DNA of 64,000 bases from contig JAGTJL010000010.1 of NCBI GenBank assembly GCA_020746875.1, positions 2,356,001 to 2,420,000 of the forward strand, given 5' to 3'. Every line of letters begins with the position of its first letter. Within the stretch, counting starts at the first letter, position 1. The notes under the pieces were generated by a model. That model saw only the letters and a list, made by a program, of their open reading frames with translations, did not search any database and had not been told where the DNA came from. Of the stretch, positions 100 through 36,014 are shown in pieces. The DNA is from Rhexocercosporidium sp. MPI-PUGE-AT-0058 (taxonomy: Eukaryota > Ascomycota > Leotiomycetes > Helotiales). A program made the position numbers and the translations under genes.

Positions 100-1207
100 C
101 TATGGGAATTTCTGTCTGGCTGCAGGCAAGGTACCTGTACATTCAGTCAAGTCGTTGATGTTATTAACTCCCAACATGCTGAGTCGTACATATGCAGCAG
201 AGTAATCCTGGAATCACATATCAGCAATGTCTCCAAAGTAAGGATCAGGTAGAATATACCTCGTTCCAGTGAGCTTGGTCACTAATGAAAGCTCTCCACT
301 CGGTGGCCATTCTCGCATCAAATGCTAGGACCTTGTCGGAGTCGAAGATGAAAAGCTTCTTGTTTGGTTTCGTAGCAATTGTCTCGTTGTAGAAATTCAC
401 ATCCCAGACCCCAGGGGTACTATCCTGAGCAGAACCAGGGTGCGCGGTATCCTGGTTGAATTGTTTAGAACAAGAATGTGCCCCGACAAGTGCGGTCAGG
501 GTGTGGGGATCGATAGTCTTGTCTTGGAAAAGAGCAATAAGATCACCGGAGAGAGCATGTACACTTGGGAGGAGTCCAGGAGGAGCAGGTTGAGTTGCAT
601 CTTTCCGTCCAACAAAAGTTCGCACCCGAGGTCCCAGCGGACAGGTGACGACAGCATGTGTAGCAGCATACTGCACCAAATCTGCAAGTCCAACCTTCCA
701 TTTCGTCGCCAACTTCTGCATCTTGACAATGATAGTTTGCAAGCCGTTGTTCTCCGCGCGATTCTGTTCTTCAAATGCCGCAATGAGAATAGATCCATCT
801 GCGCCGCCAAAGTCCAGACCAGCGGCCTTGTTGGACTTTGACCAAGTACCTGCATCGTGGAACCCGAGGCGGATTGCTGCTCGCGCGTCGTCGTTGCATG
901 TACCGTCCCTGGCAAGGAAGAGCTTCGTGAGATCTGTGGCAACGCTGTACCACACGCAGCATACACTTTGAGCAGCACAGGCGGAGGCTTGATCGACGAC
1001 AACTGCCGATTGCCCCGATTCTAGACCGAGAAGAATATTCTGGACTGCCTGCCCAGTGGTGGTGCGTACGCCGACAGTGAGGAGATCCCCAAGAAGCTCC
1101 TTTGGAGCATCGCCATCATTCAAGGGTATGGGCTGCGGAAAGGATAGCACGCCATTGAAAACCAAGGGGGAAGTTAGAGCAAGGACCCAAATTCGTGAGA
1201 ATAACAT
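100..1207 (-). CDS. Secreted class II-type fungal heme peroxidase
   Basis: Two exons, 1207-260 and 207-100, with a 52-bp intron (GTATAT donor, TTCCAG acceptor) joined in phase 0, give about 351 residues. I chose the ATG at 1207 because it begins a clear signal peptide (MLFSRIWVLALTSPLVF); the frame stays open upstream but looks non-coding. Distal heme pocket: Arg113 and His117 in RLGFHDAG. Calcium-site-like DFGGADGS lies near 132-139 and the proximal His at about 244 in LVGAHSC. The short last exon supplies the family's typical C-terminal DYSAAYVRLSMLGVNNIN block, which confirms the splice. Such enzymes oxidise phenolic or lignin-like substrates with H2O2 outside the cell. Substrate class (lignin, manganese or generic) cannot be settled by eye. 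It lies 12 kb from the peptide cluster, across a transposon block, so I see no reason to link them. Confidence 0.88.
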
Positions 1208-2149
1208 TTTGGATAGCGAGCCTTCAGTTGATTCAATTGTAAGCAGTGAGTAGGTAGAAGAGTGACTATGAGAGACGAACTGACATTTGAAATACGAGAC
1301 ATTTTTGACTGCCATCGTCGCCTTCTTATCATAGCTATGACCCAAAGAAATATCAGGTCTGCGTCCTGTAGCCTGTGACCTGCAGCGGTGAGGATCCCAG
1401 ATCATTACAGTTAGCGCGAGATGAATACGGACGGTACAAGAAGCCCCTGCCACCACAACGGCGTCTGAGACCCTGGAGGAGGGGAAGCTGACAAGAACTG
1501 TGGTTAATTAATCCTAGGTAGCGCTGCATTCTTATCCACTGTTCGACGGAAGGTATGCATTTGAAATGGCTGCCCAGACCGAAAATTCACAAAAGCAGCA
1601 TGGAAAGCCAGCGCGTTTGCAAGCCCTCGGATTTTCCCATTTGAAAGCCTCGAATTTCAATAAAGCCTCGAATTTCAATATTGCCTCGCTTGGCGTGAAT
1701 AAGGTTCCATCCCTACATCCCTCCCCGTCCGAATTTTGTTGAGGCTTTATCATGCCACCAATCAATGACATTTATCGATCCTCTGATTTGCTCTTCCAAC
1801 CGCACACGGACTTTGCTGTTCTGAGACATAAGACATGGAGAGGGGCTGAGTGACCAGACTTCAGCCTTGCAGACTGTCAACTCGCACCTTACTCCGCAAA
1901 CAATCCCTTTAGCTGCATTTCTCATGGCCCAAGCCACGCAAAATTAATGAAATGAGTTTTCGCGGCTTGTTCCTAAAGTTGTGCAGCCTAGACCCTTTCT
2001 TTTCCCTTCTCTTTTTTTTTGACGTTCTGCCCCAAAACGTTGGATGCTCTCCTGCTTCATTCAAAACACACTCCTTGACTCCCGAGTGTGGTATTGCGTC
2101 TTTGGGTACTTCTCGTTATTTATTGATTGATAGGAGGAGGATACCCAAA
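1208..2149. other. Divergent intergenic region
   Basis: No convincing gene is visible; the open frames here are short and lack family motifs. It is the shared upstream region of the peroxidase (minus) and the secreted protein (plus). It holds a near-tandem duplication of AGCCTCGAATTTCAAT at about 1645-1680. A polypyrimidine run near 2000-2020 precedes the plus-strand gene. Confidence 0.5.
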
Positions 2150-4246
2150 ATGGGGGCTTTTCAATTCTTCTTGAGCCTTTTGGTCGCCCAGGTTGTGAAT
2201 GCGGCGGTCACTCCTTTTGTCGTCTCGGGGTTTCTCGATGGGTCAGTGAATCGGCCCAAGATCTTGAGTGCCAACTAACCAGAATTTTTCGATCAGCGTA
2301 TCTGTCAATAATGAAAGCCAATTCAATTCTGGTGGCTTTGTCCAAGTCAACGGATTCAACATTTTAATTCCCGATAACATGCTCGTTGAGTTTCCAGCAG
2401 CGCAAGTCCCTTTCAAAGATTTCGTCGCAGGAAACAGAGCAGGAACCCCAGCCAATGAAGTTATCGTAAGTAAATCAATCAAAATAATTGCATCTCAGGA
2501 TCTAATATGACCAGATCAGCGGCAACGACGTCAATGGAATTATCGTCGCGGGGCAAATGCACATTGCCCAAACCCTTGGTCAAGTCTCGCAAGGCACAGT
2601 CGAAAGTGTTGCATTTGATGGCTCCATCAAAATTGTCAATGGACCAACGATTCGAATCAATGATCCTAATGCTGTCTTCAGCGCGGGTTACACTGCGATC
2701 CCATTGTTCACTGCAGATGATCAGAACCCCAGTGTCACGAGTTTCGGTGGATTCCCAATGTGTGTTCCTCGTTCGGTCGTTGATCCTCAATGCCCGCAAT
2801 CCAACAGACCAACCAATGTGGCCAATCCAAACAATTAGTGGGTTCCCCTTTCGACCGCCCTGTGACTTCTGTTAACTCTCCAGCTTCATACCTGATCCTT
2901 TTCATATGGCTCCTATCAAGCCCGGAGATTTCTTGGTTTACTCAGGTATCAAGGTTGGCACCGAGATCATCTGCTACTCCATCGTTGTGAATATCGGGAT
3001 CTTCACTCAACCCGGTGCCATACCTGCGTTCATTCGAGTCGAGGAAGCACTCATCGGTATTCTGGATCCTACCAACATAGGAACGGAAAATGCCAGGTCC
3101 AGATTCATTGGATATACAACTGATCCCTCACAAACGATCCAAATCTGGGCCATTGACGTTGACCCATGCACAGGAACAACATCAGATCGTCTCGTCGGAT
3201 TTGCATTTACTGAACCAGCCGTAGGCCTCCGAGCAAGATGGAAATTCGAATCCTCAGCTCAACCTTTAGGGGAATGGACTCGCAATTATCGCTTGAAAGT
3301 CAGCAGCGGTCAAGCAAACACGACAGACGGCATTCTCGCCGGGCAATTCGTGCAACCCGTTCTCACCTGGGTGTTCCCCGAAGTCACGACGCCTGGCCTA
3401 GCTTTTCCTCTTTTGGAATTCAGCAATATCCAGCCTCTTGCGAACGGATTTGGTCCTGATCCGAACGGATTCGTATTTCATCAACTAAATCCTTGGCCAG
3501 GAGCAACAACGCCATTACCAAAATCCTCCTGTCTAGATTTCATCCCGCCCCAAACACGGACTCCAACTCCCTCATCAAGCTCCTCAACCCTCGCCACAGT
3601 AACATCCTCATCTACTGTCTCCTCATCGGCAACAAACCCACCACCAGGATCCATTGCCGTGTCCGCCGGATCTCCCGTCCTTGTTCGTGCAGGATCCCTC
3701 GTTACCCTCACAGCCATTCAAACCACCCCCGGCTACCAGGCCTCAGACTTCACATACATCTGGACTCAAATCGCTGGGAAAACAGTCACGGCAGCAAATG
3801 TAGCAGGCCAAACAACGTCGCAACTCCAGGCCACTCTCCCCACCCTAGGTACCGCCGACCCAGCCACCGTCTCCCGTACCTTCCAAGTAGTCGTAAAACA
3901 CACTCCCACGGGCCAAACAGCCACTTCATCCGTTGTTGTAACAGAAGACAAAGTCTCCTCCGATCACCCTGTGCTTGATGTCTTCACATGGGTTTCGACA
4001 CCATCAGGAAGTTTAGGAGGTGTGTTGCAGCTGAATGCGCATACGGATTTGGTATTGCCGACGGGAGCAGCGTTGACGATGCTGGCGATTATAGACGGGG
4101 CCGCTCCGGTGAAAATGAGTAAATTAAACCCGGGGGTGTGGCAGCTGACGCAGACTAAGGTGTTTAAGCCAGCGAGTGTGACGGTTGTAAGTCAATTAGA
4201 TGGGGTACAGTTGCTTCCTGGGGCGACCAAATCTCTTGGCGCTTGA
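2150..4246 (+). CDS. Secreted protein with Ser/Thr-rich linker, unknown function
   Basis: Four exons, 2150-2241, 2297-2465, 2515-2837 and 2884-4246, join in frame to about 648 residues. The donors are GTCAGT, GTAAGT and GTGGGT. The product starts with a signal peptide (MGAFQFFLSLLVAQVVNAAV). The first ~400 residues form one globular region rich in Gly, Val and Ile with few cysteines. A Ser/Thr/Pro linker, probably O-glycosylated, lies near 410-450. A C-terminal beta-rich region (WTQIAGKTVT, TFQVVV) recalls PKD/Ig-like repeats. There is no GPI signal or transmembrane segment at the C-terminus. I do not recognise a catalytic motif. This looks like a conserved extracellular fungal protein with a spacer and a beta-sandwich tail. 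Its function is unknown to me. Confidence 0.8.
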
Positions 4247-12128: not shown

Positions 12129-13018
12129 TTGACATACAACTTTAGCACCGAAAGCGCCGAAAAGGCGCGTCTGACGCCTGCGTCCGACGTCTGCCGCAGG
12201 ATTTTTTTGCAGATAATTAAAGCTACTACGAAACTACAAGCCGAGAAATACCCGACTATATACTATTTAATCCCTGAAGTGTATAAAATATATACTCAAT
12301 TAGAAAATATTCAAGCTCAATTAAACGTAAGTTTAATTTTAATAATTTTAATAACTTAATTACTAATAACTAATTAGGATACAAATTTTACCGAAGCTAT
12401 TAATAAAGGAATAACTAAATTACGGAATTATTTTCCTAAACAAGGAATTTCGGCGAATAACAAAGCTTTATACTTCTCTTTGATTTTAGACCTTAGAATT
12501 AAAAGAGAAGGCTTAGAAGTAATAGGCCTTACAAGAGGTCAAACTACAGATATATACAATCGATTACACGAAGAATATCAAGTGTAAGTTATTAATTAAA
12601 TTTTTTATATTATTAATAATATTAATTTTATATAATTATAAGCAAGACTACTTAGCTACTCAATTACCAATTAATCAAGCCGAGAACTTAGCTTTAAATA
12701 TTATCGAAGACGACGACGACGATTAAATATATATATCGAAGAAGAAGAAGAATCAGAGGAATTAGACTCTTATTTTAAAGAAAAAAGAGCTAGCAGACAG
12801 GTAAGTAATATATACTTTTATATAATAATGATTTTACTAATATGTATTAGACAAAGTCTTTAACGTTTTGGCTTAATAATAAAGATAAATACCCGGTATT
12901 AACTTTATTAGCACGTACTTATTTACAAATACCGGCGACTTCAGCCCCTTCAGAGAGGTTTTTTAGTCAAGATCGAAATAGGCTTCATAAAGATACTTTT
13001 GAAATTGTACACACATAA
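12129..13018 (+). pseudogene. hAT-family transposase relic, C-terminal half
   Basis: Readable coding pieces are separated by intron-like gaps with GTAAGT-type donors (for example near 12,584 and 12,801). They include AEKYPTIYYLIPEVYKIYTQ, then LNPRIKREG-like DLRIKREGLE, and finally WLNNKDKYPVLTLLARTYLQ followed by IPATSAPSERFFSQ. The last pieces are the hAT C-terminal dimerisation domain. The N-terminal BED finger and a complete frame are missing. Unlike the neighbouring Gypsy relic it is only lightly mutated, so it is younger or escaped most RIP. It ends about 420 bp from the peptide-precursor gene. Confidence 0.8.
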
Positions 13019-13435
13019 TTTGCCATCTAAACGGGGACCTTTCCCCCCACACGTGTTTAGTATCATCTTTAGTATCTACATTCTATAATAAGTTATGTAA
13101 CAATACAGTAATGATTGGAATTTTACTATAATGCTCATATATCATTCAAATGTTCCGACAGATTTGCCTTGGATTTGTGGTCGGCTTAGCCAAGGGTGCA
13201 TTGAATACACTAGAACCCGCATAAGAGGCGCTCTCAAGTTACTGTAATTCTCCGACATTCACATGGAACCACTACATACTGTGGAAAATGGAAAAATGTT
13301 GAATTTAACCATATGTTTCTCTATGCTGATAATTGCACCCGTTCTGTTTTCTTTGCCCAATTTCTCAAGATCTTGCTTGTTATCCAATAACAAAGGACCA
13401 ACTTACCACCCATCCCATGGTAGATTGAGGGCATC
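13019..13435. other. Intergenic region downstream of precursor gene
   Basis: No gene seen. This stretch holds the 3' side of the minus-strand precursor gene. Composition changes here from transposon to gene island. Confidence 0.45.
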
Positions 13436-14008
13436 CTACTCTTGGGAGCTCCCCTCCTCGGCATTAGGGTACTTGATAAGGTAGCCTTGACGCTTCTCAA
13501 CGGAGCTCTCCTCCTCGGCATTAGGGTACTTGATAAGGTAGCCTTGACGCTTCTCGACGGAGCTCTCCTCCTCGGCGTTAGGGTACTTGATAAGGTAGCC
13601 TTGACGCTTCTCGACGGAGCTCTCCTCCTCGGCGTTAGGGTACTTGATAAGATAGCCTTGACGCTTCTCAACGGAGCTCTCCTCCTCGGCATTAGGGTAC
13701 TTGATAAGGTAGCCTTGACGCTTGTTAATCTGGAATATGTATTAGCAATCTTAATCAAAGACCACAACAATAGAATGCCCCGAAGATCATAGAGCTTGGT
13801 AACATAAAATGCAGACGTTGAAAACAAAACTGTCAACCAGAAGACAATTCGAGGAAATCACTAGGTTGTAGATTCTGGAAGAAAGCTTTCACCTTACCTC
13901 AGAGGTTTCTGGCTCGCGTTGTGCCAAGTCAGATGCCGGGATGGCAGCGCCAATGATGCCTTGAGCGGCAAGGGCGAGGGTGAGGATGTAAAATTTGGAT
14001 GAGACCAT
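13436..14008 (-). CDS. UstA-like RiPP precursor, five Kex2-bounded repeats
   Basis: Exon 1 (14,008-13,898) encodes 37 residues: a signal peptide (MVSSKFYILTLALAAQGIIG, cleavage near Ala21-22) and a short acidic pro-segment. A 168-bp intron (GTAAGG donor, ATTCCAG acceptor) joins in phase 0 to exon 2 (13,729-13,436): INKR, four copies of QGYLIKYPNAEEESSVEKR and a 17-residue fifth copy, then TAG; 134 residues in all. Each copy follows Lys-Arg, a Kex2 site, so one molecule releases several identical peptides. This is the plan of UstA-type precursors for UstYa-cyclised RiPPs. The candidate core is YLIKYP, which has Tyr-x-Ile and a second Tyr; the Asn-Ala-Glu-rich tail resembles a discarded follower. 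The gene is divergent from a UstYa homologue and sits at one end of a run of UstY genes. The intron and start are inferred from splice signals and frame. Confidence 0.93.
13439..13717 (-). repeat. Five tandem 57-bp coding repeats (last 51 bp)
   Basis: Repeat units at 13,717-13,661, 13,660-13,604, 13,603-13,547, 13,546-13,490 and 13,489-13,439. Differences between the first four units are synonymous (Tyr TAC/TAT, Asn AAT/AAC, Val GTT/GTC). Only the last unit changes protein sequence, at its tail (GSSQE). Confidence 0.95.
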
Positions 14009-14424: not shown

Positions 14425-15307
14425 ATGAACCAAGTCACAGATACAAACTCTGAGAGGCTTCTTTCATGTCAGTCTTCTTCATCCTTGGAACCGCTTTCCA
14501 AGGGAGACTTTGACAAGCTGAAGGGTTTTGAAACCTGGAAGCGTGGTCTTGTAAAGCGTCGGAGTTCATGTCTTTGTCAACAACTTACCCCCTGGGTCAC
14601 CTACCTTTTCATCGCCCTCTTCGTATCATCTCAAGCAGCAATCGTCTTGATGTTGAGAAGCAATAGATTTTCACCACAACTTCTTGGTGAAGTCAATGGA
14701 CTCATTCCAAACGGTATATCTCATACTCACCACGTACATAGTGAATACTAACTAACCTCTCGCAGTCGCTACGAAGATAGTAAAGTTCGAACGGAACCCT
14801 ACACATAATGCATTAGAGGAGCATGATGCCAGCTGGTTGAATATTATGCCAAGTACGTGCATATCATAATCTTTCATAATGCTTTTTGAGTACTGACCCG
14901 ATGATGCAGTTGGTGGGGGATTCATTATTCCGAAGAAGAGAGGCGATATGGTTCTTCCACCTCCCATGAAGATTCATGGAGAAGAGGTTTACTCTATCTC
15001 GGTTTTTCACCAACTTCACTGTCTCCACTCGATACTCGAAGGTTTCAACAACCCCCGGTACAATCGTACAGCACATCATCACGGTGTCGAGACGCAGGCT
15101 GACGTGGTGAAGCATATGGAGCACTGTTTTGATTATCTAAGACAGTCTATCATGTGCTGTGGAGACACTGCGCTCGAAGGGCAATCGACTCTGTTCACGG
15201 AGGCAGGCACGAGTGGCGAGGATTCTCATCACATGTGCAAGAATTATGAGCAACTACTTACGCTGGCAGAGACACACCGAGCCTCAGACCAACGAGGTTA
15301 TGAATGA
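14425..15307 (+). CDS. UstYa-family (DUF3328) oxidase, copy 1
   Basis: Exons 14,425-14,713, 14,766-14,852 and 14,910-15,307 join in frame to 257 residues. The product is a type II membrane protein: a cytosolic N-terminus of about 55 residues, one transmembrane segment (56-77) and a lumenal domain. It has both family motifs, HQLHC and HMEHC, 30 residues apart. These continue as the canonical CFDYLRQSIMCCGDTALEG and end with a HMCKNYEQL block. UstYa proteins are thought to use these His/Cys residues to bind a metal and oxidatively cyclise RiPP core peptides. It is divergently transcribed from the precursor across 416 bp, so co-expression is likely and this is the best candidate for the cyclising enzyme. 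Confidence 0.93.
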
Positions 15308-15804: not shown

Positions 15805-16506
15805 TCATACCACTGTCTCTGTAGGAGCGTTTCTGATCTCGGGTGTGTTGAAATTGATCAAACGATCGAGACAATGGTCCAGATGCTCTTTATTCATTAA
15901 TTTAAAACCCAAGCCTACCCCATGCGCCTTTCCGTTCTTGATCATAGTCTTCAAGATATACTCGCAATGTCTGAAGTGATAATCATCGATAGTGAAAGTG
16001 CTTGTGCGGCTTTTACCCTGCCACACATCGTCTTGTAATATGGGGATGGTCCGGTTCACGTCCGTGTACCATCCAAAATCATTGAGCCCGATGAATTCCT
16101 CACGCAGGCTGTCGTCCGAGCATAGCCGATGTATCCAGCCGCCATGGACTGGATCGAAAACGCAGCCTTTTTGACGAGCCCCTTGAGGATCTTTGACACC
16201 GTTACAATAAGACGAGTTGTAGACGAGGCCGAATCCTTCTGGCAGCGGATGAGTTGTGTGTAGGAAGCTAGGCTTATGTAAACCTTGAGAAACCGGTATA
16301 GTGGAAATCCGTGCAAGCTGGTTAGCAGCTAGTCTGGCTTGGCACAGCGCACCTACCAGACTCAGACATACCACAAGCCCGAGGACGAACTGCAAGACAG
16401 AATAAAGTGTACGGCGAAACCGGCTTGGCGATGTATAACTAAGATCATGTCCATCTTCCGAAACTTCTTCGTAAGATTTTCCGCGGGTGTGTTGGTGTTG
16501 CAACAT
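15805..16506 (-). CDS. UstY-like membrane protein, CG/GC subtype, copy 1
   Basis: Single exon, 233 residues. It has one transmembrane segment (35-55), then YCNGVKDPQGARQKGCVFD, a diverged form of the CGxxxxEAxxxGC signature seen in four neighbours, then a WI...C pair. Paired motifs are HFRHC and HLDHC, 26 residues apart. This spacing matches the other subtype members. The lumenal HxxHC pair suggests the same metal chemistry as UstYa, but I know of no characterised member of this subtype. It is the most divergent of the five (Asn-Gly in place of Cys-Gly, Glu-Ala absent). CTCGGT at 16,843-16,848 and CCCGAG at 16,822 lie upstream. A GTATGA near the stop could be a donor, so the extreme C-terminus is uncertain. 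Confidence 0.8.
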   Translation of the reverse strand: MLQHQHTRGKSYEEVSEDGHDLSYTSPSRFRRTLYSVLQFVLGLVVCLSLVGALCQARLAANQLARISTIPVSQGLHKPSFLHTTHPLPEGFGLVYNSSYCNGVKDPQGARQKGCVFDPVHGGWIHRLCSDDSLREEFIGLNDFGWYTDVNRTIPILQDDVWQGKSRTSTFTIDDYHFRHCEYILKTMIKNGKAHGVGLGFKLMNKEHLDHCLDRLINFNTPEIRNAPTETVV

Positions 16507-18060: not shown

Positions 18061-18795
18061 ATGGCCGACTTACCAAACGCAACCGCCCTCACCGATCTAA
18101 CCAAATACAACGACAATCGTCTGTCATTCGATAGCATCTACGATTCTACGATTGAAGATATGACTGCGAAAACATCTCGACCCCAAGGACGTTCTTTTAT
18201 ATTCCGACTGGAGAAGATCAATCGGGCCACGTTCATTACATGCTTCTTGGTTACATTCTCCTTATTCGTTTTGGCGTGGGCATTCAAAAAACCACCCTTC
18301 AGTTCCGAAAAGCACGATGTGTGTTGGTGTGGCAACACCGTTGCAGAAGCAGTCTCACTTGGATGCCATTACGATGATGTTGCGGGTGATTGGTTGCCGG
18401 ATAAGTGCATCGACCATGAGCTGCTGGCTGAATTTGCAAAAGCCGGTCCGCTCCCTGGAGGCGGCTGGCAGTATTACAAAGATATCAAGGGAACACAGAA
18501 GATAGACACCTCCAACATGAGCGCCTACACGATATCTGCGGGATCGTACTTCGCCACCAGGAGGTGGCACGCGTCGCACTGTCTGTATACGTGGAGAAAG
18601 CAGTTCAGGTCATCGCGGTTGGGAAAATCAATCATCGAGCCATACGACGATACAGAAGACCATGTAATCCATTGCACAAGAATTCTTCTAGATCAACTTG
18701 CACGTCCAGATAGCGTTGAATGGCTCGTGCCTGGGAAACGCGATCCTCTTACAGACCACGGAAAACAAGGTCATGGCGGCGAGGGTGTCGCGTAG
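18061..18795 (+). CDS. UstY-like membrane protein, CG/GC subtype, copy 2
   Basis: Single exon, 244 residues from the ATG at 18,061 (AATCATGG context); an in-frame ATG at 18,031 would add ten residues. The transmembrane segment is at 56-75. The lumenal domain begins CGNTVAEAVSLGCHYDDVAG, then W-L-P-x-K-C and a GGWQYYKD block. HASHC and HVIHC are 26 residues apart; LYTWRKQF after the first motif is typical of the subtype. By analogy to UstYa the paired HxxHC would bind a metal for oxidation in the secretory pathway; this is inferred. The upstream region has TCCGAG at 17,934-17,939 next to ATCGGTCA. The next gene lies 1.1 kb on, in the same direction. Confidence 0.85.
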   Translation: MADLPNATALTDLTKYNDNRLSFDSIYDSTIEDMTAKTSRPQGRSFIFRLEKINRATFITCFLVTFSLFVLAWAFKKPPFSSEKHDVCWCGNTVAEAVSLGCHYDDVAGDWLPDKCIDHELLAEFAKAGPLPGGGWQYYKDIKGTQKIDTSNMSAYTISAGSYFATRRWHASHCLYTWRKQFRSSRLGKSIIEPYDDTEDHVIHCTRILLDQLARPDSVEWLVPGKRDPLTDHGKQGHGGEGVA

Positions 18796-19901: not shown

Positions 19902-20615
19902 ATGGCCTCGTCTGTCTCTGAAAACGAAGACTGCCACTATTCCTATATCAAACTTTCCGAAGAGGAAACGTCAACCCGAAATGTCCGCTCAGGCTTCTCT
20001 ATCCAGAGTTTTGCCCACAAACTGGATCTGAAATGCTACATTGCTTCGGCTTGTCTCGTCGGTACTCTAACTGGCTTGTTCATCCTGCTAGTTCTGCGGG
20101 CTGTTTCGACCCCCAGCAAGTCACCACTAGACCCCTTCCGAGGGAATAGGCTTGTTGGGACTTGCGGTCTTTCTATTGAAGAAGCGAACGCTCACGGCTG
20201 TGTTTGGGACCTGATGAACTATGCATATGTACCATCATCTTGTTATGATTATGAGGAGTCTAGTCGTTGGACTGAGACTTACGGCCCATGGAACTGGTAT
20301 AAAGATAAGGAGGGGACGGCGACCGTACCACAGGAGAATCTTTCCTCGACTCATGTTATTTATGCGGATCGGGATTGGCATATTGCGCATTGCTTGTATG
20401 CCGTCAGATCAACGCATGCTGCCAGCGCAAAAGGGGCGTTTGTGACTACCCAGGCTATTCAGCTCAACCATACAGATCATTGTTTTCATATGCTCATGGG
20501 CCTTGCCAAGAATCCCCCAGGAGGAATGGCAAGAACAAAAGCCGAGCTGCAATTCATGTCCTGCGCAACATTGGATTATACCTCAGATTTATTAGGCGTA
20601 GAGATAAAAAGTTAA
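19902..20615 (+). CDS. UstY-like membrane protein, CG/GC subtype, copy 3
   Basis: Single exon, 237 residues. Cytosolic head rich in Glu and Ser, transmembrane segment at about 45-66, then CGLSIEEANAHGCVWD and VPSSC, a NWYKDKEG block, HIAHC and, 25 residues later, HTDHC. The Cys-Gly/Gly-Cys signature and motif spacing place it with the genes at 18,061, 20,877 and 22,587. Likely a lumenal metal-dependent oxidase or a partner of one; substrate unknown. It converges with the gene at 20,877, leaving 261 bp between stops. Transcription is probably driven from the CTCGGW-containing region at 19,630-19,700. Confidence 0.85.
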   Translation: MASSVSENEDCHYSYIKLSEEETSTRNVRSGFSIQSFAHKLDLKCYIASACLVGTLTGLFILLVLRAVSTPSKSPLDPFRGNRLVGTCGLSIEEANAHGCVWDLMNYAYVPSSCYDYEESSRWTETYGPWNWYKDKEGTATVPQENLSSTHVIYADRDWHIAHCLYAVRSTHAASAKGAFVTTQAIQLNHTDHCFHMLMGLAKNPPGGMARTKAELQFMSCATLDYTSDLLGVEIKS

Positions 20616-20876: not shown

Positions 20877-21611
20877 TTACGGGTCCGTCAGTGAGAACAC
20901 CATGTGTAGAAAACTCCAACACTTACTATTTTGAGGTAAGTCACATTTTGCGAATATGTGATAAAATGCGGATGGGGCTTTTTTCTCGACCTCGTCTATT
21001 GGTATCATACTCCTCGAACAATGATTTGTATGCTTGTAATTACCAATGTGACTGTCGATTGGACCATTCAGAAGTACTGCTTTGTGTAATTTCATCCAGG
21101 TGTACGCGCAGTGCAAGTTGTGGTATTCTTTCGTGACGAAATAAGGGTTTGGCCCTCCCGTTTCTCTGATAAACTCTTCAGAAAGCTCGTGCTGGCCATC
21201 CTGATCAGAGAACCACTGCCAGTCGGCCTCTCCAAGAAATTGTTTCTCCAGCTGCTCGTCATAGCATTCCAGCGGTACCCATGAGCCGGATATTAAGTCC
21301 ATAACACAGCCTTTGTCTCGTGCCTCCTCCATGGTCTTCCCACAATTCCCTGCTTTGAAATGTCTAGACCCAGAAGCCCTAAAATCTCCCACTTGTATTT
21401 GAATCCCGAGGACAAAGATCAAAATAGTCAGGAGCAAGACTAAAACCCAGATGTAGATACCAGGTCGATTTTGCCTCGCACAAGAGTGGTGGATATCAGC
21501 TTCGGCGCGGGTCAATTCCTCTTTATGGCGAGGTTCTGGGGATTCATCGTCGAAACTTCCTGCGGAACCAGAGAGTACACCGTACTTCGGTTTGCTCATG
21601 TTTGGGCCCAT
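20877..21611 (-). CDS. UstY-like membrane protein, CG/GC subtype, copy 4
   Basis: Single exon, 244 residues; the best-preserved member of the subtype. Transmembrane segment 51-71 (IYIWVLVLLLTILIFVLGI), then CGKTMEEARDKGCVMD, SWVPLEC, WQWFSDQDG, HNLHC followed by AYTWMKLHKAVL, and HTNHC 25 residues after the first motif. A Met at residue 5 is an alternative start. The tail after the second motif is longer than in its paralogues and could hide an unspliced intron. Two CTCGGT hexamers (21,826-21,831 and 21,850-21,855) lie 215-245 bp upstream. The inferred role is oxidation of a cluster peptide in the ER/Golgi lumen. Confidence 0.85.
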   Translation of the reverse strand: MGPNMSKPKYGVLSGSAGSFDDESPEPRHKEELTRAEADIHHSCARQNRPGIYIWVLVLLLTILIFVLGIQIQVGDFRASGSRHFKAGNCGKTMEEARDKGCVMDLISGSWVPLECYDEQLEKQFLGEADWQWFSDQDGQHELSEEFIRETGGPNPYFVTKEYHNLHCAYTWMKLHKAVLLNGPIDSHIGNYKHTNHCSRSMIPIDEVEKKAPSAFYHIFAKCDLPQNSKCWSFLHMVFSLTDP

Positions 21612-22586: not shown

Positions 22587-23369
22587 TTAACACTGCCGAA
22601 AATATACACTTTGGACCCCAGCAATATCATCTGGGCTATGTTTCTCACCACTCATCATCATCTCCTCGCAATGCTTTGAGTGGCGAAGACCGCGGATCAC
22701 AGTATCAACGGGATTTCCACCCAAGTACGCCATATGCATTCGACGCCACACATATAAACAATGCCATTGGTGTAGGTGCATTGTAGACCACAGCTCTCCC
22801 TTCCATTCACCAGAGAGCAATAATGACAAATCTTTCTGCGGAATGGTAGCGGCTTGGTCGAGGTAATATGGCCATTTGGCATGCTCAAGAACCTTTTGCA
22901 GCCATTCCTCTGTAACAGAAAGGTCGACGCATTCTGGTGGAGTCCAAGCCGTAGTGAGTATGTCGAAGACACAGCCGGCAGCACGCGCTTCCGCAACGTT
23001 GCTGCCACAGCCTTTGTTAAGCAATGGCTCAGGATCATTATCGTTAGAGAACAAACCGATCTCGTAGTAATATTGCGCCTTGTGAGGTCCGGTGGCGGCT
23101 ATCCGTACCAAGCCAGTTGTAGAAACATGGATAGGCTTTATGAAGAGGATGATAGAGCTGAATACGACGGCGAGAAGGAAGCCCAGTAGAAAGTACGGCA
23201 GTCTAGCTGCCCCATGTGCTTCACTTTTCGGAATCTCATCGACAAGAGGCTCTGAAGCCGACTCGATATTTGCTAATTTGGTGTAGCTCTGACTTGCATC
23301 ACGCTGCCAAATCATTAGCATATATTGAAAAACACCAGGAGTCGAGTTTACGCACGATAGTATAAGCAA
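22587..23369 (-). CDS. UstY-like membrane protein, CG/GC subtype, copy 5
   Basis: Single exon of up to 260 residues. The start is uncertain: Met at 23,369, or more plausibly Met17 or Met19 (23,321 or 23,315), which would begin a head resembling the paralogues (DASQSYTKLANIE). Transmembrane segment 57-77, then CGSNVAEARAAGCVFD, WTPPEC, a WPYYLDQ block, HQWHC followed by LYVWRRMHMAYL, and HSKHC 25 residues later. It sits head-to-head with the transporter gene over about 360 bp, sharing a promoter with CTCGGT at 23,511-23,516. Family and lumenal HxxHC pair are clear; the reaction is unknown. Confidence 0.83.
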   Translation of the reverse strand: MLILSCVNSTPGVFQYMLMIWQRDASQSYTKLANIESASEPLVDEIPKSEAHGAARLPYFLLGFLLAVVFSSIILFIKPIHVSTTGLVRIAATGPHKAQYYYEIGLFSNDNDPEPLLNKGCGSNVAEARAAGCVFDILTTAWTPPECVDLSVTEEWLQKVLEHAKWPYYLDQAATIPQKDLSLLLSGEWKGELWSTMHLHQWHCLYVWRRMHMAYLGGNPVDTVIRGLRHSKHCEEMMMSGEKHSPDDIAGVQSVYFRQC

Positions 23370-23726: not shown

Positions 23727-25304
23727 ATGCTTGCTTTGACAATGCCTTTCTTTGGGTAAATCTAGCCTTGCAGAACCCCTCTTCGATTTATAGCTAATTG
23801 AAATAGACTACAATGGTTTTGGACCATTTTTACCATATACACTGCTGTAAATATGGCTTCAATGTTTTCAAAGGGCCGGACTAACAAAATGTTTAGCCAT
23901 ACCTTACCAGCAGTCTCCATTTCTCGCCAATTCAGGTCACAACAGCATTGTCTTCGGGGCCAGTCACTGGACTTATCATGTTTCCAGTCTTTGGAATCTT
24001 GAGTGACCGGACCAGCCGTCGGCTCCCTCTCATCCTTGGAGGTGGTTTTAGCACTGCAGGTGGTTTAATTGCTTTGACAGGACTTCAAATCTTGATGGGA
24101 CTTTTGACCGTGGATCACGATACAATACGTTTCGGCCTAATCGTTCAGTGTTTCGCTATATTTTTATTATATTTCTCCTGTGTTGGGGCCCAGGCATTGC
24201 AGTTGGGGCTCCGCTGTCAGGCCATCGATTTGTGTCCACCACAGCAGCAGGCCGACATTAACCTTTGGGTGACTCGCTGGCAATCTGGCGCCTCATTATG
24301 TGCCCTACTTGTGGGATACTCTTCGCCAGGATTCTCAGTTGTTTCTGGTGGTTGCAGCGTTGCATTAATCTCTACTGTACTGTTCTTCTGGCTAACGCAG
24401 AGGGGTTCTGGTCGAGAAGGAGGGAAACCCGTCGGCACAAAGTCTTTAAGATTATTGTCTACTCCAAAAACCATTTTCGGGGCCTGGAGAAGCCTCCCGC
24501 AACTGACTAAGCAAGTATGTGTGACGCAGCTGTTTAGCCAGTTCTCCTGGTTTCCTGTCATGCATTACTTGAGTTTATACTTGGCTGAAAGTTGTTCGTA
24601 CTCTAAGTGCTTAACGTTATCAAAGCTCAACTAACACTTACACAGATACTTTCACGTTTTCCACGTCATCAAAGTCATCAATCGAGGGAGCCCAAGCTAG
24701 TATTCGCGTGATTTTGATTTCACAAAGCGCGGTGTTGACCGTGCAAACCATCGCTGGACATATATGGCAGTCTGGTGGAAGAAGGACGGGCCCTGATAAT
24801 TTGGGGCATGGACATCTGATATCAGATGATTCGATGATTGCTCTACGCAAATGCTGGGGAATCTCACTTATCTGTCTGGCCTTGTGTATACCAAGCACAG
24901 CTGTATTCCGCAATAACGTCCACATAGCCTCGTTGTGGACCTGTACCATCCAGATCTTGGGGTTCTTCTGCAACTGGATACCAAATTCTATCATAGCATA
25001 CGAAGCTGCTTCTATATCCGATAGCAACGATGAGTCCATGTCTGGAGGTGGAGAAGAAAGGCCGGAAGCGATTATGACTGCTACAACACTATCCATACAC
25101 AATACAGCGATCACTGTGGCGCAGATATTATCTACCATTGTTTCAGGGGTTATTTCTTGGAGTTTTCAGACCTTAGCTTGGAAACATTTCACTTGGTTGC
25201 TCTTTCAGCCCGGATGCATTACAGCGCTTACTGCAGCTTGGTTTGCTATCAATGGACATTCCACAGTGTCTCAAGGGAATGGTTATGGAGGAAGTAGGGC
25301 ATAA
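23727..25304 (+). CDS. GPH/SLC45-like membrane transporter
   Basis: Exons 23,727-23,755, 23,807-23,846, 23,936-24,590 and 24,646-25,304 are consistent in phase and give about 460 residues. Landmarks of the glycoside-pentoside-hexuronide/SLC45 branch of the major facilitator superfamily are present: GPVTGLIMFPVFGILSDRTS (TM2 to loop), a central AWRSLPQL then FSWFPVMHY, and a late C-terminal hydrophobic set. The N-terminal TM1 region is shorter than usual, so a further 5' exon is possible. The third donor (GTTGTT) is weak. Members move sugars or unknown metabolites, often with protons. Being inside the UstY array it could move a pathway product or precursor, but this branch is not the usual drug-efflux type. 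It shares a promoter with the gene at 22,587. Confidence 0.82.
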
Positions 25305-26313: not shown

Positions 26314-26988
26314 TTATAAGCTCCCTTTTTCGTGGTGTATCCGCAACAGTTGCGTCCAATCTTTGCATATGTGTTCGACGCCAGCACCGTCTGTTTCTGA
26401 ATAGCTTTCATCAAGTGGTTCCAGCGTCATGTCAGAATGACACATAATATCCTTCAAGGAGTTAGACTTAACGACAGTATTCCTACCCTTGTTACTAACC
26501 TGGCGAATAAGATCAAAGCAGTGTCCCAAGTGCAGTCTTTTATCGATTTGGTTTTTGTCATAGAAGTTGTTATGATAAGTTCTGTTGAGAAGCAATAACG
26601 TAAACTCCTCCCGGATGGCTACAAGGCAATGTATCTTGTGCAGCATATCGATTCCCATGAGGACTCGCCGTCCGTCCTCACCTGTCCATTCAGTTCGCCA
26701 CCAATCTTTATCAGTCTGACCAGACCATCTTTCCTGTGTGTCTTCGTCAAAATTTTGAAGATCTGGGTGATGACTGAATCGGTGCTTAATGTGCCGAAGC
26801 GAAATCGGAGTTGTGGAGATGTCGCGGGACCAGCGAAAATAAAAGATGAAAGTGAGTAGCAGCGTCAAGAATGGAAGAGTTTTCGTGAGATTATTCTTCA
26901 TTATACGGGTAGTTGAGTGGAAACAGTGCCAGAGAGCTCTTATCAACCACCCAGTGACTTGATCCTTATATGCCTCAGTGCTCGGCAA
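26314..26988 (-). CDS. UstYa-family (DUF3328) oxidase, copy 2
   Basis: The open frame has 224 codons. The likely start is Met30 (26,901), which precedes the transmembrane segment (38-51) by a normal distance. HKIHC and HLGHC are 31 residues apart, followed by CFDLIRQ and, after a gap, IMCHSDMTLEPL and a C-terminal HICKDWTQL block. The 16 codons between LIRQ and DIMCHSD (26,499-26,452) look like a retained 48-bp intron: GTTAGT donor, TCTAAC branch site and AAG acceptor. Removing it restores the canonical LIRQ-DIMCHSD spacing, giving about 208 residues from Met1. It diverges from the gene at 27,521 over 532 bp with several CTCGGW/WCCGAG sites. Likely cyclising or tailoring oxidase. Confidence 0.88.
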   Translation of the reverse strand: MPSTEAYKDQVTGWLIRALWHCFHSTTRIMKNNLTKTLPFLTLLLTFIFYFRWSRDISTTPISLRHIKHRFSHHPDLQNFDEDTQERWSGQTDKDWWRTEWTGEDGRRVLMGIDMLHKIHCLVAIREEFTLLLLNRTYHNNFYDKNQIDKRLHLGHCFDLIRQVSNKGRNTVVKSNSLKDIMCHSDMTLEPLDESYSETDGAGVEHICKDWTQLLRIHHEKGSL

Positions 26989-27520: not shown

Positions 27521-28271
27521 ATGATGCCGGAAGTTCCACTTTTGACTTGGTCGGTCAACATAACCTCTATTTTCATGTCTGCTACTTTATTATGGCTCAT
27601 CATTCTCGGCCCGTTTCCGCCGTCTGTTGACTATACCTTTCTCCCTGACCAGCAGACTAAGGCGGTATTCCATCTTGACAACCAGTCTTACATAGCATTT
27701 GATAAAAGGGCAGATGATCTATGGAAATCAATTTTGCCATCTAATGATGGCAGAGTGCTGGCGACAAACATCAGCAGTGGATTTCATTACTGGGCGACAG
27801 TGGCTATGTTTCACCAATTATCTTGCCTCCGGAACATCAGATATGCGTTCCTAGCCATGTCCCACTCTGCAGATGCTGCCGTCGTCATTCAGCAAGAAAT
27901 GGGAAAAGGTTCGGCTTATGAGAAATTGGGGGTTTGTTTTGATTACATTAGACAGGTAAGAAGCAAGCTGCGTTGCTTGCTAACGGCAGGTTACATCGTG
28001 CCAAATTTAGCTAGCTAACTCTGTGAATGATGATTAGGGATTACTGTGTGCCGCTGATACCACATTGCATCCTGTTGCGCGCTTAGATGATGGCTTCCAG
28101 GTTTTAGATGGAAATGCGCTTTGGCATACCTGCAACGATCACGAAATGTTGTACAAATGGGCCGAGATGTCTGGCAAGCCACGTAAAGTAAGTCCACAAT
28201 GTCTCTTGTGCCATAATCTACAGAAGCTTATCCGTCAGGATCCTTTGATCCACGAGAGTCCATCTCAATAG
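27521..28271 (+). CDS. Degenerate UstYa-family protein lacking motif histidines
   Basis: Exons 27,521-27,955 and 28,038-28,271, phase-0 intron, about 222 residues. The fold context is clearly UstYa: transmembrane segment 11-30, a Trp-rich segment (DDLWKSILP), then MFHQLSCLRNIRYAFL and CFDYIRQGLLCAADTTLHP, with a terminal HTCNDHEMLYKW. The motifs are broken, however. The first HxxHC reads HQLSC (second His lost) and the second reads KLGVC (both His lost). The reading frame, intron and flanks are intact with no stops, so this looks like a maintained pseudoenzyme rather than a decaying gene. A GTAAGT near 28,187 could start a further intron, so the last 25 residues are uncertain. It might act as a partner subunit for an active UstYa. 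Confidence 0.82.
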
Positions 28272-28768: not shown

Positions 28769-29843
28769 TCAAAATCCCGAATCGTCCACCATCTCCTCGC
28801 TGTAAACTGGTAAGGCTGAAATATTGAGATGCCCAGAGCTTACAGGTCCTAGTTGAGGGTGAATTAAAGATCCAGCCCCGACGAAAGGCTGCTGGGTATG
28901 TGCCCATTCACGAATCTTTGAGAAATCGCGACATTGATGTTTGGTTGTCCATACGGACCAGGGTTCCAGCCAACCATCCGCCCAACGCTGCGGTATCAAA
29001 CTCATGTCGGAATGGCACTGCAGAGAAAGCCGAATAGAATCGATACAATGAGCTGCGAAGAGTATCAATCAAGGTTCGTGTCGGAATCGCTGAGAAACGA
29101 AAAGATAGGGTGTTTGCTTACGGATGTGAATGTCTGCTGGGATCTCATCTGGAGCAGACTCGGGGTAGATCCCATGATAAAGAATGGTCTTTTTTCGCAA
29201 ATAGTTCAAGCAATGTAGTTGATGAAAGACGTCCATTCCAAGAAGATAGCCCGATCCGTCAGCAAATCCCACACGGTCAGGAGCCATCTGGCCTATCTGC
29301 TCGAGCTTTTCTTTTGGTAGCTTCAACCAGCCCTCTGCGTATATAAGAAAAGACCCACATTTACCGGAGGGAATAGATCTAAGAACTCTCTCGGGCGACT
29401 TACGATTTGACCCAATACTGAGATTTTGCCAGGCTGCATCCGAAATCGTACGATCGAAGCTCGTGTATGGTGACCTTGAACCAAGTCGTAATGACCATTG
29501 GACCTCTTTGATATCTAAAGGTGCACCGTTCGGTTCTGAAAAATTGTCAGTCTGAATTTCATTGTCTCTGAGCTGAGTTGTCACGAAGCAGAAGCTACCT
29601 GATTGGCAACTTACCGTAAAGAGTTGGCTTCTCAAAGCAAATTGGCCTTTCACCACGAACATTTAGGATAGCCCAGATGATATTTAATGAAAGAAGTATA
29701 CAAAGGATTCCATGTGGGACAAGATGGGGGACTTTATTTAATGAATGTAGGTAAGAAAGCCTCTTCCGTGGAGCGTCGTCGGCCGTATAGTTGTTGATGA
29801 ACGGTTCTGTCTCGCAACTCAATAACTTAGCTTCGTCATCCAT
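28769..29843 (-). CDS. UstYa-family (DUF3328) oxidase, copy 4
   Basis: Four exons, 29,843-29,615, 29,535-29,404, 29,334-29,122 and 29,052-28,769, give 285 residues with all phases consistent. Transmembrane segment 42-60. The lumenal part has SDAAWQNL, GWLKLP and GYLLGMDVFHQLHC, then LNYLRKK, then a second motif HIPHC that is assembled across the last intron. The canonical CIDSIRLSLQCHSDMSLIPQ and a CRDFSKIREW tail follow. The splice that restores HIPHC is strong internal support for the model. A complete, probably active member. It is divergent from the gene at 30,186 over 342 bp, sharing a promoter. Confidence 0.92.
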
Positions 29844-30185: not shown

Positions 30186-31350
30186 ATGTCTCCTAGTTAT
30201 ACAAAATTGGAACAATCGAGGTCGGGAAGCGATATTGAGAGCACAGCTGGGCATGAAGAATCGAAGTCTGGCTTGATTCCGGCGATACAGTTAGAGCGCT
30301 TACTATGGCTTTGTATGGTCTTCGGGCTTTTGGTTTGGATCATGTTATTACACTTCAACCATGGTTTCGGCCAGACGAGGTTATTCTCTTACGAGACAGG
30401 ATTCGCTACTGATATAGGTGATACCCCTTGTCTGTGGTGTTCTTACTTTGCTTTTTCGTCCTCATCGTCTTGTAAATTGAGAACTGACAAAATCTGCGAC
30501 TAAAGTTGTGGCGACGCCACATGTCGCGCTAGAAGAAGTCGTGTTCACAGGTGGTGTAGAAGTAGCAGCGGATGGCACCATGTTCCTCAATCACTCGGGG
30601 GAAGCCAGAAGATACGTTGGAGAACCTTCACGTGAAATCGACGAGAATTGGGACAACCTCGAGAATGGTGAGACTCGGCATGATACAGTTCCCCTCTCGG
30701 TGCGTTTGTAGCTCTTTACTGACAGCAATACGTTCTAGCGATTGATCTTATCCTCGACCGAAGCGAGGCTCGCACGAAGAACGAAAAGGACATCGACACT
30801 ATGCGAGAGCCTGGAGAGGAGGGAATGTACAGAGTGAGGTGATATTTCCAAGTTCTCAGTTGCTTATACGGTGAAGAAATCAGTTCAGGAACTGACTGAC
30901 TTTTCTATATCTCACAGCCTTGATGTTTTTCACTCTCTTCATTGCGTCAACCAGTTAAGAAAGGTTGTCTACGTGGACCACTACTTCCCCAAAATCAAGG
31001 ACAGCGAGTTTTTCTTCATACATATGAGTAAGTGACGTAGAGTCTTTGAACAAGCTTCCGACGGTCTTGGTCAACGAGAAATCACTTCTCACCTACAGTG
31101 AATTGAGAATGGGGCTGGGCTGACATTTCGCTCCTCCTGTGCTGTAGGTCATTGTGTAGAGCATCTTCGACAAGCTATCCAGTGCCATTCCGACTTCACT
31201 CCACTTGTGTACACTTGGGACGAGAAAGAAGATAAAGGCGGCCCTGTATGGACCTCGAAGCACACATGTCGAAATTTTACGAAGATATGGGAATGGGATA
31301 AGACTAGGGCTGCTCCTGCTCTAAGTAACAAACCCGGCGCGTCTACGTAG
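30186..31350 (+). CDS. UstYa-family (DUF3328) oxidase, copy 5
   Basis: Five exons, 30,186-30,417, 30,506-30,667, 30,739-30,838, 30,918-31,027 and 31,148-31,350, give 268 residues in frame. Transmembrane segment at 38-56, then YETGFATDI, a VFTGG-led segment, DENWDNL, and YRVSLDVFHSLHC followed by VNQLRK. The second motif HMSHC is again assembled across an intron and leads into VEHLRQAIQCHSDFTPLVYTW and TCRNFTKIWEW. It is close in layout to the gene at 33,285 (same ETGFA segment after the membrane span, same FHSLHC, same exon plan), which suggests a local duplication. All four motif His residues are present. Confidence 0.92.
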
Positions 31351-33284: not shown

Positions 33285-34415
33285 ATGACTGCAGCTCTAA
33301 TCTCAATTATAATATTCGCCACTGGTGCTGTTTTATCGACTGTAGTTGGCATCACCATAATGTATCATCAGCAAGAAACAAACGAGATACATTCTTCGGA
33401 CGGTCTTTTACACAAATTGGACCACTTCCCTCTCAAAACCAATCATTGGAGCTTTACTCGTCATCCCTTACTCCTCATTTCTCTGTTCATAAACTTCTTA
33501 TTCTTTTGCACTGGTTTTCTGCACTGGGTATCTTATGGCAAGATAGTGCATCATTCTTATGAGACCGGGTTTGCTTTAGAATTAGGTGAGACAATCTCGA
33601 TCTTTACACCGTTTGAGAAGTTAGCTTACAGCATCACGATACAGATCCAGTGAAGCCAGAAATCGAGATAGTCCAACGAACCTATGGCGGCGAAATACAA
33701 GTCGATGAGGACGGAAATTACTTTACAGATGGTCGAGGAGATTTGTACGGAGGCGCGCCATCGCCTGCTGTAGATGATGCTTGGCATTCTCTTCTAGAAG
33801 GTAAGTAATTCTTCGGGATGGATAGAAATCGCTTGCTAATTATTATTCATTGGAAAGGTTTGAATATCGGATTTACCTCTTCAGAAGTAGACTTAGGCAA
33901 TTCGACGTTCAAGTGGCCTGGATCTGGAGATTATTTTTCTGGATTGGAAGTTTTCCATTCGCTGCATTGTCTGGTAGGTAATCTTTGTGCCTCGTTACCT
34001 CAACCTACTATTAATATCGGACTCAACTAGTTGCTAATGCAAATCAATTGACAGAATCGTGTCCGTGAAGCTTTGTATCCGGAATACTACGACAATCCCG
34101 AACACCCTAACAATCCTTCTCGTCGAGATCACCTAGGTATGTTATGGCTGTTCTTCGCAGTTTGATTCTATTATGCCTAACTGTCAAAAAGAGCATTGTA
34201 TCAACCATATACGGGAGGGAATTCAATGTCACTCAGACCTCACACCTATGGAGTGGTATTTAGCGGGGAATAAGATAATTCTCAAAGCCGACACAACTCA
34301 TACGTGTAGGAACTTTAATAGAATTCATGACTGGGCAGCCCAAAGAAAGACTGTAATCTACAATGAAGAAGATGAGAAGGCCATGAGGAGTGGGAGTTTG
34401 TTTATCGTGGATTGA
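33285..34415 (+). CDS. UstYa-family (DUF3328) oxidase, copy 6
   Basis: Five exons, 33,285-33,585, 33,645-33,800, 33,858-33,973, 34,055-34,136 and 34,192-34,415, give 292 residues. The frame's first ATG adds an extra hydrophobic N-terminus (3-26). The ATG at 33,360 would give a more typical UstYa head followed by the membrane span PLLLISLFINFLFFCTGFLHW region, so I regard that start as equally likely. HSLHC and HLEHC (26 residues apart) are both intact; the second is assembled across an intron. CINHIREGIQCHSDLTPMEW and TCRNFNRIHDW follow. Its exon plan matches the gene at 30,186. Last gene of the cluster; a transposon begins 260 bp downstream. Confidence 0.9.
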
Positions 34416-34676: not shown

Positions 34677-36014
34677 TAAGAGTTGGGACAACAGCTCGTG
34701 GCATACCTAAGCGAAATGCACCGCATACACCCTTATGTTTAAATATTGAATAACTCAGTAGTATTACATTGAACTACCTTAAATTTGTATTATTACTCAA
34801 TGAATAATAGCTAATCCTTTTAATGAAATTACATCCTCTAACTTGCAAGTCAATCTTTCGACATAAGGCCGATAATCACGCGGATCTACCTGGTCCTAAA
34901 GCTTTTGAATCTCTCTCTTCAACTGATCAATAGAAGTCGATACAAATGGCAATTTCTTCAACTTTTCTTTCATCCACCGCCATACCCTCTCGATGACGTT
35001 CAAATCAGGTAAAGAAGGTGGCCAATTGAAGCCTCGAACCCCGTGTTCTAGCCTTGGTAATCGAGCATGTCCTAAGTGAACCTTCGAGCCGTCTTCCATA
35101 AAGATATACTCAGGACCGAGTGTATCAAAGAGTGGAAAAACGATTGGCCCAAGAACTTGGTGTAAATACGCCTTAGAATTAACTCTTTTCGAGCCTTCCC
35201 CCTTCTCAAGAAACACAAGAGGTGACTTCCAATCCCAGCCGATTGCTCCCCAAATCATAATCGATGTTCTCCCTGATCGATATATCGATCGAATACAATC
35301 AGGACAACGCTTTTCGTCGACTCTTCGTGTTACCCAAACTCGACCGGCTTTTCCAAGCTCGGATGAGCATTCATCTGACCATATAACATTCCTCCAGTCC
35401 CCTCCCCCTTCTCAAGAAGCTGCCCAATCACTTGTACCCCACCAACGATGCTCTTTAGGAAAGGCTAATCGCTTTTTTGCTTGCTTTCGAGAGATGAAAA
35501 GTTTCGGGCACGCAATACATTGTCTATAGCCCTTTCGACGTAGTTCTCGGCGAATCGTACGAGCAGAGGCTTGAATTCCGAGGGCTCGCTTAATCTGCTC
35601 GAAGGATGCTCTTCGTGTCGTGTAATTGCTTGCGATATATTTAATAATTTGACCAATATCTCGCGAGGAAAGTAATCTTCGTTGATATCGCTTGCATTTA
35701 CGAGTTGTCCGACTTGATTTGGCTTGACAAATACGTCGTGCCGCCGTCCGAGGTACTCCTAATTCGTGAAAGACTTGATTCTATGATTTCCCGTCTAGGC
35801 GAGCTTGACTAACTCTAGCTCGTTTAGGTGTAGGCCAATTTTGATTTGGCTCGTGGACTGGAGAAGAAGAGAGAATATCTGTCGCTATGCTTAATTTCAA
35901 AGAATTGATTAAAGGGTTGATTTACAATTCAAAGTTGAAGATAGGGGGTTAGAAATTAAGGTGGAGACGGAATCTCGCTTAAGTGTGCCACGAGCTGTGG
36001 CCTCAACTCTTGCT
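34677..36014 (-). mobile_element. Tc1/mariner-like DNA transposon, lightly mutated
   Basis: The ends are imperfect inverted repeats of about 35 bp sharing ACAGCTCGTGGCA and TAAGCGA; on the right they read in reverse complement. The minus strand encodes a DDE transposase: an HTH region (GIQASARTIRRELRRKGY), the first catalytic Asp in NVIWSDECSSELG, SIMIWGAIGWDWKSP, the second in YIFMEDGSKVHLGHARL, and the last in WPPSLPDLNVIERVW. One in-frame TGA (near 35,413) falls before the first Asp, inside an odd Ser-Glu-Gly-rich stretch, so the gene is probably dead. It shows few transitions compared with the blocks around it, implying a recent arrival. The exact termini and TA duplication are not clear. 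Confidence 0.82.

Follow-up and report, generated by a model that had tools for sequence, protein, structure and literature searches.

Introduction

Precursors of the known dikaritins pass into the ER, where Kex2 cleaves them, and their cyclisation depends on DUF3328 proteins (PMC7329392). According to the accessible part of that survey, five DUF3328 genes are present in the phomopsin cluster, two in the ustiloxin cluster, and one in the asperipin-2a cluster, with a mean of 1.7 for each precursor that has such neighbours, and a tyrosinase requirement is named only for the ustiloxins and phomopsins. In CctR of cyclochlorotine, a DUF3328 copper hydroxylase, the pattern HxxHC(x)nHxxHC forms a two-copper site in a membrane-bound dimer; the two HxxHC motifs occupy separate helices, which are paired with each other and follow the membrane helix (PMC12435403, accessible sections).

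We analysed a stretch of 64,000 nucleotides from Rhexocercosporidium sp. MPI-PUGE-AT-0058, a member of the Helotiales (C2:2356001-2420000), hereafter called the window, and searched the genome of 62.7 Mb in 60 contigs. Like the phomopsin and ustiloxin clusters, the window holds a predicted precursor with a signal peptide, Kex2-type repeats, and a YXIX core, together with several DUF3328 genes (PMC7329392, accessible part). Unlike them, it has six UstYa genes, one of which is ligand-less, five genes of a second double-HxxHC family, and another core and tail; six is a higher number of UstYa genes than phomopsin has (five) and also lies above the survey average (1.7). Neither a tyrosinase (23 matches genome-wide, none of them on C2 or C7) nor a methyltransferase (six-frame Pfam scans of approximately 14-36 kb) was found. 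The asperipin-2a cluster likewise combines a repeat precursor with UstYa-type cyclisation, but has one DUF3328 gene in the accessible account as against eleven double-HxxHC-type genes in the window, with U3 counted. The lichen dikaritin-like clans R1 and R2 resemble the window in that their DUF3328 genes, recognised by a pair of HXXHC motifs, lie in clusters that differ from those already described; for these clans no conserved repeat precursor was found, whereas the window has a clear one, and no second double-HXXHC family was met in the accessible text (PMC12048977).

Two definitions of dikaritins are cited in the accessible part of the same paper (PMC12048977). When DUF3328 is taken as the class-defining enzyme, the six UstYa loci within 21 kb of the precursor place the cluster among the dikaritins. 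Of the components named by the older five-gene definition, the tyrosinase and the methyltransferase are missing within the scopes given above, and the transporter/peptidase component is represented by an MFS gene (34.1 bits to MFS_1). As judged from the predicted genes, the precursor and the UstYa genes would make a new dikaritin member; what would set the cluster apart is the second family, together with the conserved UstYa protein that lacks ligands.

Results

The precursor gene and its repeats

The two exons of the precursor gene (Table 1) join in phase to encode a predicted protein of 134 aa. Translation of the repeats requires the splice: the unspliced frame ends after 39 residues, and no in-frame ATG is present in the repeat exon. 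The N-terminus of the translation is a signal-like hydrophobic stretch, and each of the five units is preceded by KR. Units 1-4 are complete and identical at the protein level (QGYLIKYPNAEEESSVEKR), each ending in KR, and the fifth, QGYLIKYPNAEEGSSQE, is shortened and reaches the stop without KR. At the nucleotide level the four full units differ at three sites, every one of them a third codon position and synonymous. The array had a Tandem Repeats Finder score of 516, and its 33-base repeat pattern was matched five times in the window and in none of 100 dinucleotide-preserving shuffles. The predicted signal peptide and the repeats bounded by predicted Kex2 cleavage sites would qualify the precursor as a KEP; the genome contains one P_proprotein (Kex2-type) match. 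YLIK is present in all five units and conforms to the YXIX core of the ustiloxin/phomopsin type.

A preliminary description of this DNA had proposed that a signal exon and a repeat exon join in phase, and its coordinates proved exact, with a predicted GT-AG intron of 168 bp. It had also regarded the gene as a UstA-type repeat precursor, in agreement with the signal peptide, the Kex2-type repeats, and the adjoining U1 gene, which is divergent, with 416 bp between the two start codons. Its count of five Lys-Arg-bounded copies was correct for the four complete units ending in KR, but not for the fifth, which is shortened and lacks KR. No relative of the precursor was found in the organism's own genome or in the protein database. 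According to the preliminary description, the core is not known from a described product; we found no occurrence of YLIKYP in an open-access library of 5.39 million papers.

Table 1. Predicted features of the cluster (positions are those of the window).
Feature	Position	Strand	Remarks
Precursor exon 1	13898..14008	-	111 nt; signal peptide MVSSKFYILTLALAAQGIIGA... to ...PETSE; predicted in-phase canonical GT-AG splice
Precursor intron	13730..13897	-	predicted, 168 bp, GTAAGG...CAG; read-through stops after two codons
Precursor exon 2	13436..13729	-	INKR, then four QGYLIKYPNAEEESSVEKR units and a shortened fifth, QGYLIKYPNAEEGSSQE; stop TAG 13438-13436
U1, UstYa-family	14425..15307	+	both HxxHC intact; 91.6 bits to PF11807; divergent from precursor
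Gene A, second double-HxxHC family	15805..16506	-	C7 counterpart 42-44% identical
Gene B, second double-HxxHC family	18061..18795	+	single exon
Gene C, second double-HxxHC family	19902..20615	+	single exon
Gene D, second double-HxxHC family	20877..21599	-	single exon; AlphaFold2 model
Gene E, second double-HxxHC family	22587..23315	-	single exon; start codon uncertain
MFS transporter gene	23897..25304 (approximate limits)	+	at least two exons
U2, UstYa-family	26314..26901	-	53.8 bits; counterpart on C7
U3, UstYa-family	27521..28271	+	spliced model 63 bits; three of four motif histidines absent
U4, UstYa-family	28769..29843	-	105.6 bits; C7 counterpart 47-67% by exon
U5, UstYa-family	30186..31350	+	96 bits
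U6, UstYa-family	33285..34415	+	54.1 and 40.7 bits, two frames; C7 counterpart 53-80% by exon

The gene set around the precursor

All six UstYa loci within 21 kb of the precursor (U1-U6) were above the Pfam cut-off (PF11807). The same 21 kb also contain one MFS gene and, between U1 and the MFS gene, the five single-exon genes A-E, which belong to a family without a Pfam model. U1 corresponds to the database protein BKA65DRAFT_479602 of Rhexocercosporidium sp. MPI-PUGE-AT-0058, to which it is identical over 257 aa. The four motif histidines are all present in U1, U2, U4, U5, and A-E, and also in U6 with a predicted AAG acceptor: its second motif reads HLEHC if the last intron is 34137-34191. 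The MFS_1 match comes from the first open frame of the MFS gene (cut-off 33.4 bits), and the second frame alone gave no Pfam match. As with the methyltransferase, no peptidase was detected in the six-frame scans of approximately 14-36 kb, which exons too short to score could escape.

At the left end of the window, an open frame of 420 codons with a peroxidase domain (91.2 bits) lies at 245-1507 (-), and one of 456 codons without a Pfam match at E 0.01 at 2876-4246 (+). The AT-rich stretch at 12200-13020 (+), to the left of the precursor, contains a frame ending in PATSAPSERFF, which may resemble the tail of a hAT transposase. Towards the right end, 35 copies of TATAT form an array at 57166-57340, and a short TAACCC-type repeat lies inside the contig at 63317-63347.

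A UstYa protein that has lost its ligands

At its two motif sites U3 reads HQLSC and KLGVC, as compared with HxxHC twice in the active members. Its counterpart on C7 (47% identity over 208 columns) has HQLRC and NVAYC at these sites; in both proteins three of the four motif histidines are gone and both cysteines are kept. Since the loss is common to a counterpart that is only 47% identical, it looks old and kept. A relative of U3 on C34 retains HALHC and HLGHC. CctR, which functions as a dimer, becomes inactive when alanine replaces the His and Cys of its motifs (PMC12435403, accessible sections). The simplest reading would be that U3 is a dead dimer partner, and the U3 pair offers a direct way to ask whether UstYa enzymes form mixed dimers with such a partner.

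A second family of double-HxxHC proteins

The proteins of the second family consist of a predicted membrane helix, a CG..EA..GC.D..W.P..C.D block, and then HxxHC...HxxHC. Both full motifs and a hydrophobic N-terminal stretch are present in all five window genes, and an alignment of A-E with four relatives from the same genome (n=9) showed eleven invariant residues (A, GC, D, C.D, H..HC, HC). In a relative elsewhere in the genome (L020) the second motif reads NTEHC.

With D as the query, 13 genes in seven loci were found in the genome, and the queries A, B, and E gave 7, 10, and 12 places, respectively, all inside the set found with D. UstYa genes are found within 10 kb of three of the seven loci, which together account for nine of the 13 genes (binomial P 1.9e-5, with 23 UstYa loci and their 10-kb margins, i.e. 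0.83% of the genome, as background), and the other four (C12:2005759, C1:1680050, C6:1343736, and C2:642743) have no UstYa match nearby. At C2:642743 a weak match to the MFS protein of the window lies approximately 0.5 kb away from the family gene. The third locus near UstYa genes, besides those in the window and on C7, is C8:22853-26128, approximately 23 kb from the contig start, where two family genes stand beside UstYa matches; a repeat precursor was not found in C8:8001-35999.

In the protein database, 22 family matches were obtained at E 0.001, none of the 22 with a Pfam domain, and no name given by the sources states a function. Relatives of D of metagenome source were P0014 (51% identical over 61% of D) and P0011 (43% over 75%), and A-type relatives were named for Stipitochalara, Xylaria, Cladobotryum, Trichoderma arundinaceum, and Anthostomella. 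The T. arundinaceum proteins TARUN_10153 (A-type) and TARUN_10150 (U1-type) are both on 8618-base contigs, presumably the same one, and a second A-type/U1-type pair is on contigs of 26422 bases. Among A-type proteins outside the organism's own genome whose sequences were inspected, ten are on contigs of more than 8 kb, and two of these ten were paired in this way, in a search limited to U1-type UstYa proteins.

Relation of the second family to UstYa

In frame scans at E 0.01, A-E gave no Pfam match; gene E scored by itself reached E 0.0066 and 16.8 bits with UstYa, the best score within A-E. None of 20 family members reached the UstYa (PF11807) cut-off of 25 bits, the best having 23.2. Weak UstYa matches were nevertheless seen in eight of the 20, and some of them extend upstream of the motifs, e.g. 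over profile positions 80-175. The trimmed family profile was aligned with UstYa profiles by hhalign with a probability of 89.9 and an E-value of 1.7e-6 over approximately 55 columns. In the controls, full column shuffles reached at best 0.17 (20 runs) and the reversed profile 0.19; when the conserved His/Cys columns were kept and the rest shuffled, the best value was 1.6e-4 (20 runs), and when the conserved His and Cys were masked, the match was gone (E 0.82). Taken against these shuffle and masking controls, the E-value makes a common origin of the A-E family and UstYa likely, though short of proof. Since the Pfam scores stay below the cut-off and the match vanishes upon masking of His and Cys, a copper role of A-E rests on the motif.

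The AlphaFold2 model of D had a mean pLDDT of 77.4, with every ten-residue block of 91-190 above 90. It contains a long helix at 46-78, and the motifs are on helices 157-176 and 188-197. No solved structure matched the model, and the UstYa model made for comparison was poor. In having a predicted membrane helix and, as modelled for D, motifs on two helices, A-E resemble CctR (PMC12435403, accessible sections), from which they differ by scoring below the UstYa cut-off and by the extra conserved Cys/Asp block before the motifs.

A paralogous cluster on C7

Counterparts of U6, of a B/E-type gene, and of MFS, U2, U3, U1, A, and U4, together with a repeat precursor, were found at C7:1250613-1262943. 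The predicted C7 precursor has a signal exon, a 52-bp intron, AQNKQR, and five units of the QYLAAFAEDEAASKDKR type, the last one shortened. The order and direction of MFS(+), U2(-), and U3(+) are the same in both clusters, and the divergent precursor-U1 pair is kept with 421 bp between the ATGs (1258906 and 1258484), as compared with 416 bp in the window. Separate counterparts of C, D, and U5, or of both B and E, were not seen on C7.

When the cores are aligned, Q-G-Y-L-I-K-Y-P of the window stands against Q-Y-L-A-A-F-A of C7, each followed by an acidic tail. Common to both is Q-(G)-Y-L-x-x-[Y/F]: Leu directly follows Tyr, and the fourth residue after Tyr is aromatic. Ile is not common: the C7 core YLAAF has Ala where the window core has Ile, and YLAA departs from YXIX. 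Since most of the enzymes have counterparts in the other cluster whereas the cores differ, the two paralogous clusters are a natural test of which part the enzymes recognise, the core or the acidic tail.

Another repeat precursor, on the minus strand, was seen in a dense UstYa cluster (nine exon matches) at C34:2592159-2602710, with units like YVHGSYGYDKR and an acidic spacer of two kinds. No match to the second family was found in that cluster.

Discussion

Proposed pathway and its alternatives

As predicted from its genes, the locus is quite probably a dikaritin-type cluster, in which the six UstYa proteins, A-E, and the MFS protein act with the precursor and are likely to oxidise the QGYLIKYP core to an exported cyclic peptide. 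The signal peptide would take the precursor into the secretory pathway, where Kex2 would cut after each KR, and the acidic tail NAEEESSVE may be the part recognised by the enzymes. The UstYa proteins with intact motifs (U1, U2, U4, U5, and U6) would rely on two copper ions for an attack on C-H bonds in the core, and the step common to both clusters would be expected at Tyr-Leu, which both cores contain. A-E could be copper oxidases of a second, membrane-bound group and introduce further cross-links, double bonds, or hydroxyls. U3 could form a mixed dimer with an active UstYa protein, in which it would be the dead partner or a scaffold. Peptidases would trim the product and the MFS protein would export it. 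The calculated [M+H]+ of YLIKYP is 796.4603 (794.4447 at -2H and 792.4290 at -4H), and that of QGYLIKYP is 981.5404 (979.5247 and 977.5091). The genes C, D, U5, and one of B/E, which seem to be absent on C7, may be responsible for steps special to YLIKYP.

The bond formed is a separate matter. The preliminary description had expected the Tyr phenol of YLIK to be linked through its oxygen to the Ile beta-carbon, in an ustiloxin/phomopsin-like product in which the Lys-Tyr-Pro half might give a second ring. YLIK fits the YXIX of the ustiloxins and phomopsin, in whose cyclisation Tyr is joined to Ile, and several UstYa genes are at hand, but a tyrosinase is needed in those pathways (PMC7329392, accessible part). 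Because none was found on C2 or C7 and the paralogous C7 core, without Ile, breaks the YXIX rule, we consider this bond possible but doubtful and the expectation not supported. It is very improbable that the repeats are plain linear signalling peptides resembling mating factors and that the adjoining oxidase genes belong to the synthesis of something else. Linear pheromones are likewise encoded as KR-bounded repeats, and the majority of repeat precursors have no DUF3328 neighbour; yet pheromone-type precursors are, with three exceptions, without accompanying DUF3328 genes (PMC7329392, accessible part), whereas the precursor studied here adjoins U1 and the pair is retained on C7.

The surroundings could suggest a silent or decaying cluster, left behind in an AT-rich region with transposons close to the end of a chromosome: the GC content is 20-34% to the right of 36 kb (window 36000-64000), pieces of a Tc1-type transposase lie in two frames just to the right of U6 (34899-35780, minus strand), the contig ends 19 kb past the window, and U3 has lost motif histidines. 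This seems rather improbable in view of the open gene models, the exclusively synonymous differences between the full repeats, and the histidine loss in U3 being shared with a counterpart of 47% identity and so apparently old and kept. As regards A-E, their likeness to UstYa lies mainly in the motif, and they could be proteins other than oxidases, in which the copper or zinc bound by the HxxHC pairs has a different use, for example the supply of copper to UstYa or the binding of substrate; the authors of the CctR study propose that Cu(I) or electrons come from an accessory protein (PMC12435403, accessible sections). Five different copies in one cluster, however, suit five reactions better than one delivery task, and the weak UstYa matches of some members reach upstream of the motifs, so we regard this role as unlikely.

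Significance

Our tentative proposal, to which we give somewhat less than an even chance, is that A-E make up another class of dicopper oxidases in the membrane, distinct from UstYa, that modify ribosomal peptides and would act together with UstYa proteins and the ligand-less U3 to place several rings or double bonds in one short core. In the literature consulted, mostly open-access and partly available as excerpts, no description of the second family or of a conserved ligand-less UstYa protein was found. If A-E are peptide oxidases, they would represent a class of tailoring enzymes that was passed over by surveys hooked on UstYa/DUF3328, such as those in PMC7329392 and PMC12048977 as far as their accessible texts go. 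Clusters that hold only the A-E class would then be missed by every search hooked on UstYa.
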